A stretch of DNA of 64,000 nucleotides from Natrinema ejinorense. Lineage in GTDB: Archaea > Halobacteriota > Halobacteria > Halobacteriales > Natrialbaceae. The position numbers and the translations under genes are program-made. Within the stretch, counting starts at the first letter, position 1; each line of letters opens with the position of its first letter. The notes below the pieces were generated by a model. The model did not search any database. It was given only the letters and a program-made list of their open reading frames with translations, and was not told the origin of the DNA. This document shows positions 10,076 to 18,331 of the stretch, in pieces. The stretch covers positions 1,922,001-1,986,000 of the forward strand of contig NZ_NXNI01000001.1 in the NCBI RefSeq assembly GCF_002494345.1. The letters are read 5' to 3'.

Positions 10076-12247
10076 ATGAGTCTTGCCGATTCGGACCGCG
10101 AACTCGTCGTTTCCGAGCTGGGGCGGGAACCGACTCGAGCGGAGGCGGCGCTGTTCGAGAATCTCTGGAGCGAGCACTGCGCGTACCGCTCCTCGCGACC
10201 GCTGCTGTCGGCGTTCGACAGCGAGGGCGAGCAGGTCGTCGTCGGGCCGGGCGACGACGCGGCGGTCGTCGCACTGCCGTCGCCTGACACCGACGGCGAT
10301 CGCGCCGGCGGGCGCGCAGACGATGAAACCTACATCACGATGGGAATCGAGAGCCACAACCACCCCTCCTACGTGGATCCGTTCGACGGCGCGGCGACGG
10401 GCGTCGGCGGCATCGTCCGGGACACCCTCTCGATGGGGGCCTACCCGATCGCGCTCGCGGACTCGCTGTACTTCGGCGAGTTCGACGACGAACACTCGAA
10501 GTACCTCTTCGAGGGGGTCGTCGAGGGGATCAGCCACTACGGGAACTGCATCGGCGTTCCGACGGTCGCGGGCAGCGTCGACTTCCATTCCGACTACGAG
10601 GGGAATCCGCTAGTTAACGTCGCCTGCGTCGGCCTGACGAACGAGGAGCGCCTCGTCACCGCCGAAGCCCAAGAGCCCGGCAACAAGCTCGTACTCGTCG
10701 GGAACGGGACCGGTCGGGACGGACTCGGCGGTGCGAGCTTCGCCAGCGAGGACTTAGCGGAGGACGCCGAGACCGAGGATCGACCCGCGGTCCAGGTCGG
10801 CGACCCCTACGCCGAAAAGCTGCTCATCGAGGCCAACGAGGTCCTCGTCGACGAGGACCTCATCGAGTCCGCCCGCGACCTCGGTGCCGCCGGCCTCGGC
10901 GGTGCCTCCAGCGAGATGGTCGCCAAGGCCGACCTCGGTGCACACATCGAACTCGAGCGGGTCCACCAGCGCGAGCCGAACATGAACGCGCTGGAGATCC
11001 TCCTCGCGGAATCCCAGGAGCGGATGTGTTACGAGGTCGAACCGGACAACGTCGACCGCGTGCGCGAAATCGCCGAGCGGTTCGATCTGGGCTGCTCGGT
11101 CATCGGCGAGGTCACCGACGGCAACTACGTCTGCACGTTCGATGGAGAGTCCGTCGTCGACGTCGACGCGTACTTCCTCGGCGAGGGCGCGCCGATGAAC
11201 GACCTCTCGACCGAAGACCCGGCGGAACCCGAAACCGATCTGCCCGATGTCGACCTCGAGGATGCGTTCGAAACGGTCGTCTCGAGCCCGAACACCGCCT
11301 CGAAGCGGTGGGTCTACCGACAGTACGACCACGAGGTCGGCGTGCGCACGAGCGTCGGGCCGGGCGACGACGCCGCGATCATCGCGGTCCGAGAGGCCGA
11401 ACAGGGACTTGCCCTCTCCTCCGGTGGCGCACCGAACTGGACCGACGTCGCACCGTACGAGGGTGCCCGCGCGGTGGCCCTCGAGAACGCGACGAACATC
11501 GCGGCCAAGGGGGCGACGCCGCTGGCCGCGGTCGACTGTCTCAACGGCGGCAATCCCGAGAAGCCCGACGTCTACGGCGGCTTCACCGGGATCGTCGACG
11601 GGCTCGCCGAGATGTGCGAAACCCTCTCCACGCCGGTCGTCGGCGGGAACGTCTCGCTGTACAACGACTCCGTCGCGGGACCGATCCCGCCGACCCCGAC
11701 GCTGGCGATGGTCGGCTCCAAGGACGGGTACGACGCACCGCCGCTGGCGGTCGAGCCGGCGGGCGACTTGCTTCTCGTCGGCGACCTCGGCCTCGAGACC
11801 GGTTCCCCACGGCTCGGCGGCTCCGAGTATCTCGCCCGGTTCGACGGCAGCGACGCCTTCCCCGAACTCCCGACCGATCCGGCGGCCGTCGTCGAGACCC
11901 TCGCTGCGGTCGCGAACGACGACGCGACCCTCGCAGTCCACGACGTCAGCCACGGCGGCCTCGCCGTCGCGCTCGCGGAGATGGTCACCGAGGACGCCGG
12001 GCTCGAGGTGGCGATTCCGAGCGACCAGCCGGCAGGGGCGTTGTTCCACGAACAGCCGGGGCGCGCACTCGTCCAAACGGAGTCGCCGGAGTCAGTCCGC
12101 GAGGCGTTCGACGGCGTCGCGCCGGTCGTCGAACTCGGCTCGGCGACCGACGACGGTCGACTCACGGTCGACGCCGGTCGGACGCTGACGGCCGACGCGG
12201 CCGAGATCCGCGACCGTCGCGGGACGATCGAACGGGAACTCGAGTGA
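10076..12247 (+). CDS. purL: Phosphoribosylformylglycinamidine synthase subunit PurL
   Basis: This 723-residue protein matches the short archaeal/Bacillus form of PurL. That form performs the ATP-dependent amidation of FGAR to FGAM in purine synthesis, with PurQ supplying ammonia and PurS bridging. The [19 protein letters not shown] region holds the conserved active-site motif, and GASFASEDL and [11 protein letters not shown] follow in the expected order. The repeat of the two AIRS-like halves (GPGDDAA around residues 60 and 430) is clear. purQ and purS are not nearby, while purM lies 28 kb away. I start at MSLADSD (10076) rather than an out-of-frame ATG four bases earlier. A TATA-like GTATATGG lies about 45 bases upstream. 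Confidence 0.95.
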
Positions 12248-12383: not shown

Positions 12384-12971
12384 ATGACTACTGATACCCC
12401 GTCCGTCCTGATCGTCGAAGACGAGCCCGACCTCGCGAACCTCTATGCCGCCTGGCTCGAGGCCGAGTGCGACGTCGAAACGTCCTACGACGGTACCGAA
12501 GCCCTCGATGCGATCGACGAATCGATCGACGTCGTCCTGCTGGACCGGCGGATGCCGGGCCTCTCGGGCGATACCGTCCTCGATACGATTCGGGAACGGG
12601 GCCTCGACTGCCGGGTCGCGATGGTGACGGCGGTCGAACCCGATTTCGACATCATCGAGATGGGATTCGACGACTACCTCGTCAAGCCGGTTTCGAAGGA
12701 CGAACTGGTCGAGATCATCGATCAACTGCTCCTCCGGACGAGTTACGACGCACAGCTCCAGGAGTTCTTCGCACTGGCCTCGAAGAAAGCGCTGCTAGAC
12801 GATCAGAAAACGGAGGCCGAACGCCGCTCGAGTCAGGAGTACGCCGAACTCAAAGACCGGCTGGCCGTCCGTCGAGTGCAAGTCAACGATACGATGCAGG
12901 AACTGCTCGAGCAAGACGGCTACCGACAGCTCTGTCGGGATATTACGAACGAATCGGTACTGCAGGAGTAA
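12384..12971 (+). CDS. Response regulator with HalX domain
   Basis: This 195-residue protein has a receiver domain (1-112). Asp12/Glu12-type acidic residues lie in VEDEPD, with phospho-acceptor Asp54 in LLDRRMPG, Thr82 and Lys101 in YLVKPVSKDE. A HalX domain follows (about 120-180), a coiled helical module found only in haloarchaeal regulators. There is no DNA-binding domain, so the output is unknown. The start at 12384 fits the receiver fold. It is convergent with a degenerate histidine kinase gene 58 bases away, which may or may not be its partner. Confidence 0.88.
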   Translation: MTTDTPSVLIVEDEPDLANLYAAWLEAECDVETSYDGTEALDAIDESIDVVLLDRRMPGLSGDTVLDTIRERGLDCRVAMVTAVEPDFDIIEMGFDDYLVKPVSKDELVEIIDQLLLRTSYDAQLQEFFALASKKALLDDQKTEAERRSSQEYAELKDRLAVRRVQVNDTMQELLEQDGYRQLCRDITNESVLQE

Positions 12972-13029: not shown

Positions 13030-14895
13030 TCACTCGCGGGTCCGTTCGAGGGTCGTTACGTCTCGAATTTCGATCCGCGTTCCGCCGTTGTCCCCGTTGG
13101 TGACGGAACACTCCCAGTCGTGGGCTTTGGCGATGGCCCGGACGAGTGCGAGGCCGAGACCGTCGATCGCGGTTTCGTCGTCGGCGGTCGGATCGAGCAC
13201 GCGGTCGTGTGCGGTCGGCGGAATCTCGGCGGCGTCGTCGAGGAGGAAAAACCCTCGACTGCCGCCGTCGTCGAACCCGACGAGGCCGATCTGGATCGTT
13301 ACGTCGCCCTTGGCCCGCGCGGCGGCACTGTCGAACGCCGTCTCGAGGAGATGGCCGAACCGGTCGGGATCTGCCCGGAGCGTGGCCGAGCCGTCGACGA
13401 CAACGACCGAATCCATCTCGAGTTGCGAGTCGCTGATGGCGTCTTCGATCGCCGCCTCGAGATCGAGTCTGGTGCGGGTCCCGACGGTCGAGGCGTTGCG
13501 GGCGAACTCCCGGATGTCGTCGACGAGTCGTTCGGCCCGATCGAGCGTCGTTTCGACGGTGTCCTCCGCGAGCGGAAACTCCCATTCGTCGGTCGTCTCC
13601 TCTTCCAAGGCGTCGGCGACGGTCTCGAGTTGGTCTTTCAGATCACTCGAGAGGACGTCGGCGATGGACTCGAGGCGGTCGGTCTGGCGCTCGAGTTCGG
13701 CCGTCCGATCCCGCAGGACCTGCTCCCGATCGGCTCGATCGAGGGCAGCTCGCGTGTTCTCGACGAGCGTCGAGATGAGATCGATATCGGTCTCGTCGAA
13801 CCGGTAGGGATCCAGCGAGCCGGTCATGAGAATACCGTGTGTCCCGATCGGTGCGATGATCTCGGATTCGAGGGGCGTATCCGGGTTGTAGAGGTTATCG
13901 ATGGTCCCGAGATCGTCGAACAGCTGGACTTCGCCGGCTTCGAAGACGTCCCAGACGAGGCCTTCGCCGGGGTTGAACCGCGGGAGACCGCCGAATTCGT
14001 CGTGTGCACCGGCGGTCCCGGCGACGGGTTCGAGGTAGCCCCGTTCTTCCTCGAGCAGCCAGACGCCGCTGATGGGCAGATCGAGCAGATCGCTCCCGGC
14101 GTGGACGGCGATCGCACAGATCTCCTCGGGATCGTCGGACTCGAGGAGCCACCGGGTAATCTCGTGGAGCGACGTGACGACGCGGTCGTACTCGTATCGG
14201 TCGGTGATGTCCCGGATGACGGCGGCGACGGTGGCGGTGTTGTCCTCGATCGGGACGAATCTGAACTCGGCCATCCGCGCATCGCCCTCCGGCCCGACAT
14301 AGGCGACCTCGAGCTGGCTGCGGTCGGCGTTTCCGACGTCGACGTCGGTGATCGCCCGGCCGATATCGACCGCGGATTCGCCGTCGATTCCCGCTAACTC
14401 GGTGAGCGTCTCCACGTGTTCGCCGACGAGTTCCGTTCGATCGGCACCGAGGATCGTCTCCGTCGCGCCGTTGACGGTGACGATCTCGCGGTTGCGATCG
14501 AGCGTCACGACGGCGTCGTGGACCGCCTCGACGACCGCAGCGTGTTGGGCCAACGTCGTCTCCTGGGCCTTCCGCTCGGTGACGTCGCGCATGAACACCG
14601 ACAGCCCGGATTCGGAGGGGTAGGCCCGAGCTTCGAACCAGGTCTCGAGGTGCGTGTGGTAGATCTCGAAGGAGACCGACACCTGCTCGTCCATCGCGCG
14701 GTGGAACCCCTCGGGGAACTGCGTCTCGACGGTCTGGGGGAACTCGTCCCACATGACCCGCCCGATCAGGTCCTCGCGGGACCGTTTGAGCAACGTCTCG
14801 GCCCGTTCGTTGAGATAGGTGAATCGAAACCCCGTATCGAGTGCGAAGAACGCGTCGGAGACCCGGTCGACGATCGGTACCGATCGCGTCGTCAC
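13030..14895 (-). CDS. PAS-PAS-GAF histidine kinase-like protein, catalytic residues replaced
   Basis: This 621-residue sensor has PAS domains at about 5-108 and 117-232, a GAF domain at about 238-388, a coiled region and a C-terminal HATPase-like domain (about 475-612). In the dimerisation helix the usual S-H-D-L-R-N-P-L motif reads SSDLKDQL, so the phosphorylated histidine is Ser417. In the N box the asparagine position is Ser523 (ETAFDSAAA). GLGLALV (579-585) remains. It has no membrane span. The start is GTG at 14895, and the next in-frame ATG would cut into the first PAS domain. It is probably a non-phosphorylating sensor or scaffold, and its partner is unknown. Confidence 0.85.
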   Translation of the reverse strand: MTTRSVPIVDRVSDAFFALDTGFRFTYLNERAETLLKRSREDLIGRVMWDEFPQTVETQFPEGFHRAMDEQVSVSFEIYHTHLETWFEARAYPSESGLSVFMRDVTERKAQETTLAQHAAVVEAVHDAVVTLDRNREIVTVNGATETILGADRTELVGEHVETLTELAGIDGESAVDIGRAITDVDVGNADRSQLEVAYVGPEGDARMAEFRFVPIEDNTATVAAVIRDITDRYEYDRVVTSLHEITRWLLESDDPEEICAIAVHAGSDLLDLPISGVWLLEEERGYLEPVAGTAGAHDEFGGLPRFNPGEGLVWDVFEAGEVQLFDDLGTIDNLYNPDTPLESEIIAPIGTHGILMTGSLDPYRFDETDIDLISTLVENTRAALDRADREQVLRDRTAELERQTDRLESIADVLSSDLKDQLETVADALEEETTDEWEFPLAEDTVETTLDRAERLVDDIREFARNASTVGTRTRLDLEAAIEDAISDSQLEMDSVVVVDGSATLRADPDRFGHLLETAFDSAAARAKGDVTIQIGLVGFDDGGSRGFFLLDDAAEIPPTAHDRVLDPTADDETAIDGLGLALVRAIAKAHDWECSVTNGDNGGTRIEIRDVTTLERTRE

Positions 14896-15124: not shown

Positions 15125-16357
15125 TCAAAACCGATCGCCGAGATAGACATCGGTTTGCGGAAAGAGCGTCGAAAGCACCGCTCTCGCCTCCGGAGCTGCC
15201 GTCTCGATCCGACCCGTTCGCTCGAGGGCTTCCGCGGACTGGAATCCGACGACGAGCTGTGAGAGCGCACCGATTTCCAGGCGGACATCGGCGTCGGCCG
15301 CCGCGTTCGACCGACCGTCCAGCCGGGTACAGTCCGCCTGGCCGGCCGCGACCGCCAGCTCGAACACGCCCTCGTTCCACTCGACCAGCGGGTCCTCGAC
15401 GGCGATCGTCGTACTGACATCGAGATCCGGATACGAGAGGGCGGAGAGCGTCGCCGCGACGTCGACGATTCGGACCATCGGGCCGTTCTCGACGACGGTC
15501 TCGATCTCGTCGGGGTCGCGAGCGAGATCGCGGAGCGGAACGCCGGCAGGAACGCGAAGCCGCACACGCTCGACCTGCGACTCGTGGTCGTGACAGAACG
15601 ACAGCAACGCCAGGGTGGCCTCGTGATCGATGGACGCGAGTTCGGAGACAGCCATCGTCCGGTCGCCCATCTCGCCGTCGATCGTGTAGACGAGATATCC
15701 CCGTACCCGACCGTCGCGTTCGTACGCGTAGACGAACGGGTCCCGTTCGTGGCCGCCGAACACGCGATAGCGCCACCAGTCTTCCTCACGCTCGAGGGAC
15801 AGCGAGTATCGGTCGGCGTGGGCTTCGTAGGCCGGTGTGAGCGACCCGAACTCGTCGGCCTCGAGTCGGCGGATCGAACCCGCGTCCCGGTCGACGGCGT
15901 CGGTCGCGAACGAAAACACCGACGGCTCGCATTCGTGGGTGACGATCCGGTTGCACGTGTCCCAGCCATATCGGCGGTAGAACCGATAGCTGAACGGCCA
16001 CAGCACGCAAAATCGGATATCACGGTCGCGATACTCCGCGAGCGAGCGGGCGAGTAACTGCCGAACGTACCCCCGACGGCGGTACTCGGGTGGCGTCGCG
16101 ACGGACGCGAGCCCGGCGGTTCGGTGGCCCTCCTCGCGAACACGGGACTCGAGCCAGTAGTGCCGACAGACACAGCGTGGCTCCGCGTCGTCGGCTTCAT
16201 CGGTTTCGTACACGCCGCGACGGGATCCGAGCGTCGCTCGGGGCCGCTCGTGTTCGTCGGGATCGTACGCCGGGACCCCCTCTTCGGGCCTGAACGCGTA
16301 GCTGCGGTATTCGTGAAAGACGTCCCGTTCGTCCGGGATGGGACGATAGTCGACCAT
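15125..16357 (-). CDS. Eis-like GNAT acetyltransferase
   Basis: This 410-residue protein has an N-terminal GNAT domain whose acetyl-CoA loop reads VATPPEYRRRGYVRQL (86-101). FCVLWPFSYRFYRRYGW, typical of the Eis family, comes next. A second GNAT-like domain and an SCP2-like C-terminal part follow, matching the usual Eis length of about 400. Bacterial Eis proteins acetylate amines such as aminoglycosides or lysine side chains. The haloarchaeal substrate is unknown. It stands alone, with the palindromic element and the aminotransferase gene upstream on the same strand. Confidence 0.82.
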   Translation of the reverse strand: MVDYRPIPDERDVFHEYRSYAFRPEEGVPAYDPDEHERPRATLGSRRGVYETDEADDAEPRCVCRHYWLESRVREEGHRTAGLASVATPPEYRRRGYVRQLLARSLAEYRDRDIRFCVLWPFSYRFYRRYGWDTCNRIVTHECEPSVFSFATDAVDRDAGSIRRLEADEFGSLTPAYEAHADRYSLSLEREEDWWRYRVFGGHERDPFVYAYERDGRVRGYLVYTIDGEMGDRTMAVSELASIDHEATLALLSFCHDHESQVERVRLRVPAGVPLRDLARDPDEIETVVENGPMVRIVDVAATLSALSYPDLDVSTTIAVEDPLVEWNEGVFELAVAAGQADCTRLDGRSNAAADADVRLEIGALSQLVVGFQSAEALERTGRIETAAPEARAVLSTLFPQTDVYLGDRF

Positions 16358-16412: not shown

Positions 16413-16490
16413 ACCCGTCTGGGCGATCGTCAGTCAGTCCCACCACACCGACCAGGGGATGGCGTGGCCCCAGTGACGGCCGCCGTCTCA
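16413..16490 (-). repeat. Stop-codon palindromic element, copy 5 (diverged)
   Basis: On the reverse strand it begins TGAGACGG, the TGA being the stop of the aminotransferase gene (16490-16488). It contains the same GACTGACTGAC as copies 2 and 4. The inner stem CCACACC (16442-16448) pairs with GGCGTGG (16461-16467), with one wobble. The far end CCCGTCTGG matches the CCGTCTG end of the other copies. It is less similar than the other four, but structure, ends and stop-codon position agree. Confidence 0.7.
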
Positions 16491-17645
16491 GACGTGCTCG
16501 TCGACGAACGCCTCGATACGGTTGAGCGCTTGCCGGAGGTCACCGAGCCCGGTCGCGTAGGAAACCCGCAGGTGGCCTTCACCGACATCGCCGAAGACGT
16601 CGCCGGGAACGACCGCCACCCCCTGTTCGCGGAGGACCGCCTCGGCGAACTCCTCGGCCGTGAAGCCCTCGGGGACTTCGGGAAAGCAGTAGAACGCGCC
16701 CTTGGCCTCGAAGACGTCCATCCCGATTTCGCGAAAGCGCGAGAGGACGAACTGTCGGCGGCGGTCGTACTGGTCGACCATCTCCTGGACGTCGTTCGCA
16801 CACGAATCCAGGGCCTCGAGGGCGGCGTACTGGGCCGTCGTCGGGGCCGAGAGCATCGTATACTGGTGGATCTTGTTCATCGCGCCGATCGCATCGGCGG
16901 GGCCGAGCGCGTAGCCGAGCCGAAGGCCGGTCATCGCGTGGGCCTTCGAGAAGCCGTTGAAGACGATGGTTCGCTCGCGCATCCCCTCGAAGCTCGCGAT
17001 CGAGGTGTGGTGGCCGTCGTAGGTCAACTCGGCGTAGATCTCGTCGGAGAAGACCATCAAGTCGTGCTCGCGGGCGAAGTCGGCGATCGGCTCGAGGTCC
17101 TCGGCGGGCATGATCGCGCCCGTCGGGTTGTTGGGGTAACAGAGGACGAGCACGTCCGCGTCGGCCGCGCCGGCCTCCTCGAGGCCCTCAACGGTGAGGC
17201 GGAACTCGTCGTCTTTCGTGGTCGGGACCGGCAGGACCTCGCCGCCGGCGAAGATGACGCCGGGCTCGTAGGAGATGTACGACGGCTGGGCGATCGCGAC
17301 CGTGTCGCCGGGATCGACGAACGCCCGGAAGGCGAGATCGACCGCCTCGCTCGCGCCCGCCGTAACGATGATCTCCTCGTCGGGGTCGTAGCCCAGCTCG
17401 AATCGGTCCGCGACGTAGTCGGCGATCGCCTCGCGGAGCTCGCGTTTCCCTCGGTTTGCCGTGTAGGACGTCTTGCCCTGCTCGAGGGAGGTGATCGCGG
17501 CGTCGCGGGCGGCCCACGGCGTCGCGAAGTCGGGCTCGCCCACACCCAGCGAGATGACCTCGTCGCGTTCCTCGGCGATCTCGAAGAAGCGCCGAATGCC
17601 CGACGGCGGGACCGCCTGCACGCGGTCTGACAGTTCGAACGTCAT
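16488..17645 (-). CDS. Class I/II pyridoxal-phosphate aminotransferase
   Basis: This 385-residue fold-type I aminotransferase has the motifs GVGEPDF (34-40), PNNPTG (171-176), SDEIY (200-204) and NGFSKAHAMTGLRLG with Schiff-base Lys234. It resembles archaeal aspartate/aromatic aminotransferases of the AspC family. The exact substrate cannot be read from sequence. It follows an Lrp-type regulator with two bases between them, so the two form an operon in which the regulator probably senses an amino acid related to the aminotransferase reaction. The TGA stop belongs to copy 5 of the palindromic element. Confidence 0.9.
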   Translation of the reverse strand: MTFELSDRVQAVPPSGIRRFFEIAEERDEVISLGVGEPDFATPWAARDAAITSLEQGKTSYTANRGKRELREAIADYVADRFELGYDPDEEIIVTAGASEAVDLAFRAFVDPGDTVAIAQPSYISYEPGVIFAGGEVLPVPTTKDDEFRLTVEGLEEAGAADADVLVLCYPNNPTGAIMPAEDLEPIADFAREHDLMVFSDEIYAELTYDGHHTSIASFEGMRERTIVFNGFSKAHAMTGLRLGYALGPADAIGAMNKIHQYTMLSAPTTAQYAALEALDSCANDVQEMVDQYDRRRQFVLSRFREIGMDVFEAKGAFYCFPEVPEGFTAEEFAEAVLREQGVAVVPGDVFGDVGEGHLRVSYATGLGDLRQALNRIEAFVDEHV

Positions 17646-17647
17646 GG

Positions 17648-18133
17648 TCAGGGTGAGAACGAGAGGCGATCGTCGCCCTCGCCGTCGCCGAGTTCGATGC
17701 CGTTCTCCTTGTAGGAGGTCATCACGTAGTGGGTGACCGTCTGCGTGATCTCGGGGACCGGCGCGACCTTCTCGCTGATGAACTGGGAGACCTCGCGGAT
17801 GGAGTCGCCCTCGACTTCCATATCGAAGTCGTAGTCGCCGCTGATCAGCCGCAGCGCTTTGACCTGCGGGAACCGAGCGAGGCGCTCCGCGATGTCGTCG
17901 TAGCCCGTCTCGCGGTCGAGCGTGACGTTCAACTCCACCTCGGCCCGGACGCGTTCGTCCTCCAGTTTGTCCCAGTCGACGACCGCCTGGTAGCCCCGGA
18001 CGACGCCCGCTGCCTCGAGCTCCTCGATGGTTGCCTCGACCTCGCTCTCCTCGAGGTCGGTCATTCGCGCGATATCCGCCGTGGAGTAGCGCGCGTTCTC
18101 ACGGAGCAACTCGAGCACCTCGCGTTCGCTCAT
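17648..18133 (-). CDS. Lrp/AsnC family transcription regulator
   Basis: This 161-residue regulator has a winged helix-turn-helix at residues 1-55 (LLRENARYSTADIARMTDLEE, boundaries approximate). A RAM/AsnC-like ligand domain follows (about 65-145), with VKALRLISGDYDF as the conserved effector loop. Lrp proteins bind amino acids and form octamers on DNA. The start at 18133 gives the family N-terminus MSEREVLELL. The sequence upstream carries CTTTACT as a TATA-like box and a palindrome around AACGTT, which may be an autoregulatory site. It is the first gene of a two-gene operon with the aminotransferase. Confidence 0.9.
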   Translation of the reverse strand: MSEREVLELLRENARYSTADIARMTDLEESEVEATIEELEAAGVVRGYQAVVDWDKLEDERVRAEVELNVTLDRETGYDDIAERLARFPQVKALRLISGDYDFDMEVEGDSIREVSQFISEKVAPVPEITQTVTHYVMTSYKENGIELGDGEGDDRLSFSP

Positions 18134-18331
18134 ACCGCTTGGAAGCGCGAGCGCGAGTAAAGGTTTAACGTTGTTCGGCCGGCGGCCTGCGGGGACGGTC
18201 GTCGAGTGCGGGACCACGACGAGGTACTCGCGATGGACGGTCCGTACGCGACGCTGTAGGGTGTCAAGCCGGTGAAACCGGTGCGATGCCCAGTCTCCTC
18301 AAGACGCCCCGCGGTTCCGTCGGCGGTAATT

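Follow-up and report, generated by a model that had tools for sequence, protein, structure and literature searches.

The window, by which we mean the whole 64-kb stretch of DNA that was analysed, contains a gene for a putative pseudo-histidine kinase of 621 residues, starting with GTG and lying tail-to-tail with the gene of a HalX-containing response regulator at a distance of 58 bases. Both genes belong to one syntenic block that also comprises purL, a GNAT acetyltransferase, an aminotransferase and an Lrp-type regulator. The features are as follows:

10076..12247, plus strand: PurL-like gene (AIRS, AIRS_C, FGAR-AT linker), at which the block ends on one side
12384..12971, plus strand: REC-HalX response regulator, convergent with the pseudo-kinase gene; D54, T82 and K101 kept
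13030..14895, minus strand: pseudo-histidine kinase gene, 621 aa (PAS-PAS-GAF-degenerate DHp-degenerate CA)
14569..14871, minus strand: PAS1 (PAS_4, aa 9-109; Pfam), the best conserved part within the genus (mean identity 0.916)
14200..14517, minus strand: PAS2 (PAS_9, aa 127-232; Pfam)
13738..14136, minus strand: GAF (GAF_2, aa 254-386; Pfam)
14116..14118, minus strand: codon of C260 in the GAF domain, Cys in 89/89 orthologues and in 1/7 His-bearing outgroup kinases
13486..13737, minus strand: DHp-like two-helix segment (aa 387-470; model and Pfam scan)
13645..13647, minus strand: codon of S417, the site of the phospho-accepting His (His in 0/89)
13066..13371, minus strand: CA/HATPase_c-like domain (aa 509-610; Pfam HATPase_c and fold match)
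13327..13329, minus strand: codon of S523, the N-box Asn site (Asn in 3/89)
15125..16357, minus strand: GNAT-SCP2 acetyltransferase, syntenic neighbour
16488..17645, minus strand: class I/II aminotransferase, syntenic neighbour
17648..18217, minus strand: Lrp/AsnC-type regulator, syntenic neighbour

The two PAS domains and the GAF domain that the earlier note had read in the protein are recognised by Pfam as PAS_4, PAS_9 and GAF_2. HATPase_c homology is present but weak (31.7 bits against a cut-off of 26.4) and HisKA falls below acceptance (11.1 bits against 26.9); among the 39 family members scanned, HATPase_c is matched at E <= 0.01 by 32 and HisKA by none. An AF2 model (mean pLDDT 81.4, pTM 0.51) predicts the order PAS-PAS-GAF-two-helix-CA and matches kinase cores, including HK853-RR468 complexes and NifL-NifA (9qq6_A, rank 7 in the fold search, E 7.6e-15), with query-normalised TM-scores of only 0.2-0.3. 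Most VIA-align rows cover PAS2 and GAF (residues 125-397) and carry little information on DHp and CA.

The neighbouring regulator is a REC-HalX protein, with Response_reg and HalX domains and the phosphorylation residues. Its model consists of a receiver and long helices with PorX and receiver domains as best matches, and neither the model nor its fold matches show a DNA-binding fold. Of the 76 rows compared, 76 retain D54, 75 T82 and 74 K101; one row (L018) is partly unreliable, its receiver being truncated or out of frame in the N-terminal half and its D54 entry not trustworthy. In Haloterrigena sp. H1 (L041/L018), from which that row comes, the receiver half of HalX looks truncated or frameshifted and the pseudo-kinase is intact.

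The block was followed in 62 loci that span 9 kb or more, with purL in 59, the full order in 17 and parts of it in the others; many of these partial loci stop before the block does or contain a gene under the 40% identity cut. HalX homologues of another family, 56-61% identical, were found in L170-L174. The one in L170 adjoins an IMP dehydrogenase and a TrmB-type regulator (by Pfam; the other loci of this group were judged by reading partly cut ORFs), and is convergent with a 717-aa protein (L170:2094-4244) that has no Pfam match at E <= 1e-5 and which ORFs in L172 and L174 resemble by eye. A HalX gene stands beside purine genes in both settings (purL here, IMP dehydrogenase in L170-L174), perhaps by chance.

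Loss of the catalytic motifs

The H box of the protein reads LSSDLKDQL, with S417 at the site of the phospho-accepting His and Q422 in place of the Pro, and the N box reads LLETAFDSAAAR, in which T519 and S523 replace both Asn residues. At the site of the G1 motif DDGxGI the protein has DDAAEIP when aligned with intact kinases. When the C-terminal 237 residues were compared with the sequences of solved structures, two weak bacteriophytochrome matches were obtained (E 0.0087), and in this weak phmmer alignment the second Ser of the H box stands opposite the His of VLGHDLRNPL and S523 opposite the Asn of ANLLSNA; a MAFFT alignment with seven intact kinases places S417 and S523 in the same way. 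The motifs SSDLKDQL and ETAFDSAAA given in the earlier note, the latter lying within the N box above, are exact, and both alignments confirm its assignment of Ser to the His and Asn sites.

Orthologues were collected from whole genomes and named GTDB contigs, giving 125 distinct proteins after merging those with identical last 500 residues, which were divided by score and a hand list into 90 orthologue candidates and 35 others; the 89 orthologues counted here are these 90 minus a split gene represented by its N-terminal half only (L035), and one set of loci fetched later stands outside the 89. Residue 417 is never His and never Tyr, and is S in 25, N in 23, T in 18, E or G in 8 each, R in 4, D in 2 and A in 1. 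The N-box Asn is found at 523 in 3/89 (L038, L058, L092) and at 519 in none, the H-box Pro at 422 in none, the G1 glycines in 5 and 3, and an N or T at the HisKA phosphatase position in 5. The G2 glycines are retained in 83 and 81 orthologues and the D-box Asp in 82. All seven outgroup kinases have the His, both N-box Asn, the Pro and the G1 glycines.

The replacement by serine therefore stands for this protein and does not extend to the family, in which eight different residues occur at position 417; the orthologue alignment proposed in the earlier note for the conservation of the serines gives S at 417 in 25/89. As judged from the alignment, the conserved feature across the family is the loss of His and not the serine. 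A conserved serine as a new phosphosite was rejected, since position 417 varies so widely among the 89 orthologues that a Ser/Thr phosphosite there is not conserved. Recent decay was likewise rejected. The loss of the phospho-accepting His is, on the evidence of the orthologue sequences, ancestral, and thus the close orthologues with His and Asn that the earlier note had named as the mark of recent decay were not found (0/89 with His, 3/89 with the N-box Asn).

By sequence the protein is related to canonical PAS/GAF-HisKA-HATPase kinases, and it very probably has no histidine-kinase activity. Since the G2 glycines and the D-box Asp are kept, some nucleotide binding may persist, and together with the three orthologues that have the N-box Asn this retention is what would speak for autophosphorylation at another residue, or for a different reaction with ATP. 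Such an activity is very improbable given that the DHp segment is devoid of any His in 61/89 orthologues, with His at scattered positions in the rest, that nearly all orthologues lack the N-box Asn and the G1 glycines, and that residue 417 varies.

Distribution and selection

In a tree of 53 rows, hand-picked as 37 of the 89 orthologues and 16 His-bearing kinases and built on the C-terminal 369-424 residues, the pseudo-kinases and the His-bearing kinases lie on opposite sides of a branch with an SH-aLRT of 100. The family thus appears as one clade, consistent with a single ancestral loss of the His. Of the 292 genomes sampled from the class 79 carry it, in three families (f1, f7 and f10), among them 73 of the 74 sampled genomes of the family to which the window belongs (f1); another genome search found it in a fourth family (f3) as well. 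The sets of the class sample were typed by hand, with cut-offs of about 580 bits for the kinase and 285 bits for the regulator.

Within the genus, 26 of 28 genomes have a full-length match. The gene is split into two frames in one genome (G018:C1:113058-114913, L035), with the break near residue 300, and absent from another (G023), from which it follows that the gene is dispensable there, or misassembled. These two genomes and the lost catalytic motifs are what a decaying pseudogene would predict, a reading that we regard as negligible against the full-length copies in the genus, the presence of the gene in 73/74 family genomes and substitution rates that are well below neutrality in every domain: dN/dS is less than 0.43 in all 65 domain-by-pair estimates (13 close pairs, five domains). 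The pseudo-kinase is kept under purifying selection in every domain.

The mean identity among 25 orthologues of the genus is 0.916 in PAS1, 0.890 in GAF, 0.806 in CA, 0.802 in DHp and 0.799 in PAS2. As control we took the canonical kinase that accompanies the genome's second HalX gene and has the His in 18/18; it gave 0.837 in DHp, 0.775 in PAS, 0.733 in CA, 0.670 in GAF and 0.544 in the N-terminal part (15 orthologues). The order in the pseudo-kinase, with PAS1 and GAF on top, is the reverse of that in the control. CA changes more quickly than PAS1 and GAF, so that the protein may depend on this domain only in part. Furthermore, 23 positions are fixed in the clade (at least 93%) and common to at most 1/7 outgroups, 12 of them located at aa 240-385, in the GAF domain, including C260, which is invariant in the clade; in this comparison with seven outgroup kinases the GAF domains are possibly not one-to-one counterparts.

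HalX as a candidate partner

The earlier note had proposed that the HalX regulator may lack a local phosphodonor, and this is borne out in the window: the receiver keeps D54, T82 and K101, the window has no HATPase_c match other than that of the pseudo-kinase, and since this sole match is degenerate no intact local phosphodonor was found. In two Natrinema genomes HalX and the pseudo-kinase are separated by an intact REC-PAS-PAS-HisKA-HATPase kinase on the strand of HalX (L182:6298-8244 in G010 and L046:7926-9848 in Natrinema salsiterrestre, with Pfam run on the G010 copy only); this kinase could be one route by which HalX obtains a local phosphodonor.

The strictest form of a partnership would make the pseudo-kinase solely a phosphorylation-independent regulator, or phospho-reader, of the adjacent HalX protein. 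It draws on the convergent HalX gene that adjoins the pseudo-kinase in 76 of 90 orthologue rows, on the gene counts in the 292 class genomes (60 with both, 19 with the kinase only, 4 with the regulator only, 209 with neither), and on the only other HalX match of the genome (G000:C1:1720883-1723473; L219:2384-4974), whose gene likewise converges on a kinase gene, there of the canonical type, in 18/18 loci. Among the 19 genomes with the kinase only, four (G029, G080, G193, G286) have a lower-scoring regulator match beside it, and one (G265) has a 42%-identical regulator-like ORF there, in an inspection that leaves aside G165 and G271; one genome with the regulator only (G208) has a shortened kinase. 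Six of the 14 rows without a convergent HalX had at most 1.5 kb of 3' flank, and in the genomes of two of these HalX lies further on (L022, G010) or about 22 kb away (L029, G032); the other eight had 4.4-6 kb (L012, L015, L023, L036, L065, L069, L090, L164).

Tail-to-tail adjacency was downgraded as proof of a pair: it is part of a wider syntenic block, so that position does not establish the pseudo-kinase and HalX as a dedicated pair. Seven genomes, all from a single genus (G032, G090, G204, G274, G277, G301, G306), retain both genes at a distance of about 17 kb or more, or on different contigs. No HalX gene stands between purL and the pseudo-kinase in G078, G028, G036, G196, G211 and G169, and in two of twelve genomes searched (G036 and G196) there is no HalX domain match anywhere in the genome, yet both keep the pseudo-kinase. 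The dedicated pair implied in the earlier note is not supported by these observations.

Correlation of evolutionary distances was also examined. The mirror-tree partial correlation given PurL is 0.33 for the pseudo-kinase and HalX (50 genomes), a value that by itself would favour the pair, and 0.36 with Lrp (30 genomes) and 0.27 with GNAT (31 genomes). The signal is, however, not specific to HalX: on 19 common genomes the correlations are 0.62 with HalX, 0.58 with GNAT and 0.34 with the aminotransferase. When the Natronococcus-type rows are left out (five of 50), the value for the whole protein drops to 0.13, and CA is the one domain that stands out, unlike DHp, with 0.36 (0/300 permutations, in a set of 18 tests of which two of three row sets are the same 45 genomes). 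In several loci, mostly of Natronococcus (L032/L079, L073, L074, L075, L083), HalX (48-52% identity) and the G1/G2 part of the pseudo-kinase have diverged together. Faster evolution of the pseudo-kinase was not seen where no HalX adjoins it (11 against 54 others, two-sided p 0.053); these proteins tend to evolve slower, by ratios that are rough and for which some PurL rows are possibly partial.

We therefore consider the strict pair unlikely. From the genome comparisons the adjoining HalX protein appears to be the best candidate for a partner in those genomes that have it. It cannot serve alone in every species, and the wider block and the two HalX-free genomes make it a likely rather than an obligatory partner. 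For this species in particular, a direct partnership with HalX is a plausible proposal to which we give somewhat less than an even chance.

A partner of another kind would be one or more active kinases, tuned by heterodimer formation. The prediction retains the helices for dimerisation, such a role would do without a matching regulator, and heterodimers are reported for RetS-GacS (PMC6944256) and for the ChrS pseudokinase with HrrS (PMC9491836). The genome has 36 HATPase_c matches, 30 of them with an H-box-like His (motifs read by eye; L201 is atypical), which leaves about 30 His-bearing kinases as possible partners; the six without are the pseudo-kinase, a protein that we call CheA-like from its sequence (L196) and four that are not classed as histidine kinases. 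The sole candidate examined, the canonical HalX-linked kinase, is however patchy, with a match in 18/41 genomes at E <= 1e-100. This heterodimer, a special case of the explanation favoured below, is rather unlikely as the specific answer, less so than the strict pair.

Proposed mode of action and comparison with known systems

Signalling without phosphotransfer is the best reading of the kinase-like protein itself. We propose that it is probably a sensory pseudo-histidine kinase, whose presumably inactive but maintained core would signal by protein contact. PAS1 and the altered GAF domain with its invariant C260 would take up the signal, the helical DHp/CA body would change its shape in response, and this body would bind another two-component protein, either a response regulator or, as a heterodimer, an active kinase. 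Where HalX is the partner, its phosphate would come from another kinase or from a small donor. A more specific possibility, in our opinion quite unlikely, is that the whole haloarchaeal family has become a non-enzymatic switch centred on the GAF domain, in which C260, through a thiol, a metal or a ligand, would set the shape of the dead core, and the core would read or gate the phosphorylation of HalX regulators fed by other kinases, with a flow of information opposite to the textbook one, as in DivL; if true, it would be the first archaeal case among the open-access literature matches listed.

Judged by sequence, the gene would be annotated as a kinase of the histidine type, and thus kinase counts and predicted kinase-regulator pairs in this group likely include a non-working kinase. 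A dead kinase that is maintained by selection and nearly family-wide offers a clean case for a role of the kinase core without phosphotransfer, and also an approach to the HalX domain.

Bacteria are known to have pseudo-histidine kinases. No archaeal family of this kind is described among the open-access literature matches listed. The function of the HalX domain was undocumented in the 2018 census (PMC5847659), and a HalX-containing protein, HVO_1357, is reported to affect motility in Haloferax volcanii (PMC7824242). The same census describes archaeal proteins of a 'HisKA, no HATPase' type, with PAS/GAF sensors and no kinase activity (Galperin et al. 2018, PMC5847659); their lesion is the opposite one, as they keep the His in the absence of HATPase, whereas the pseudo-kinase lacks the His and keeps a degenerate HATPase.

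Several bacterial systems are comparable. CCNA_03265, a hybrid kinase of Caulobacter, is reported to lack the conserved histidine and to keep the aspartate of a receiver (PMC11481889), but it is a hybrid protein of one bacterium, and its authors allow a nearby His to serve. The ChrS pseudokinase variant of Corynebacterium is a kinase-dead sensor acting through the paralogous active kinase HrrS (PMC9491836), yet it arose from a laboratory-evolved frameshift in CA and is not an ancient family. NifL of Azotobacter has no kinase activity and controls NifA by direct binding, and resembles the pseudo-kinase in its tandem PAS domains and kinase-like core with a GHKL domain (PMC8063818); it differs in that NifL of A. 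vinelandii retains an H motif and has the activator NifA as its target, with no GAF domain described there and no HalX. The fold match between NifL and our model is a general PAS/kinase match with a low TM-score.

DivL of Caulobacter and other Alphaproteobacteria is reported to be neither a kinase nor a phosphatase and to bind and read DivK~P, and it shares with the present family the PAS domains on a kinase core and the replacement of the accepting His throughout (PMC4211667). DivL has a conserved Tyr at this position (Ala in one species) and weak binding of an ATP analogue, whereas here the position is variable; the present family, in an archaeal host, has in addition lost the N and G1 boxes and carries a GAF domain. 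The proposed likeness is one of working only, and we claim no orthology between both proteins.
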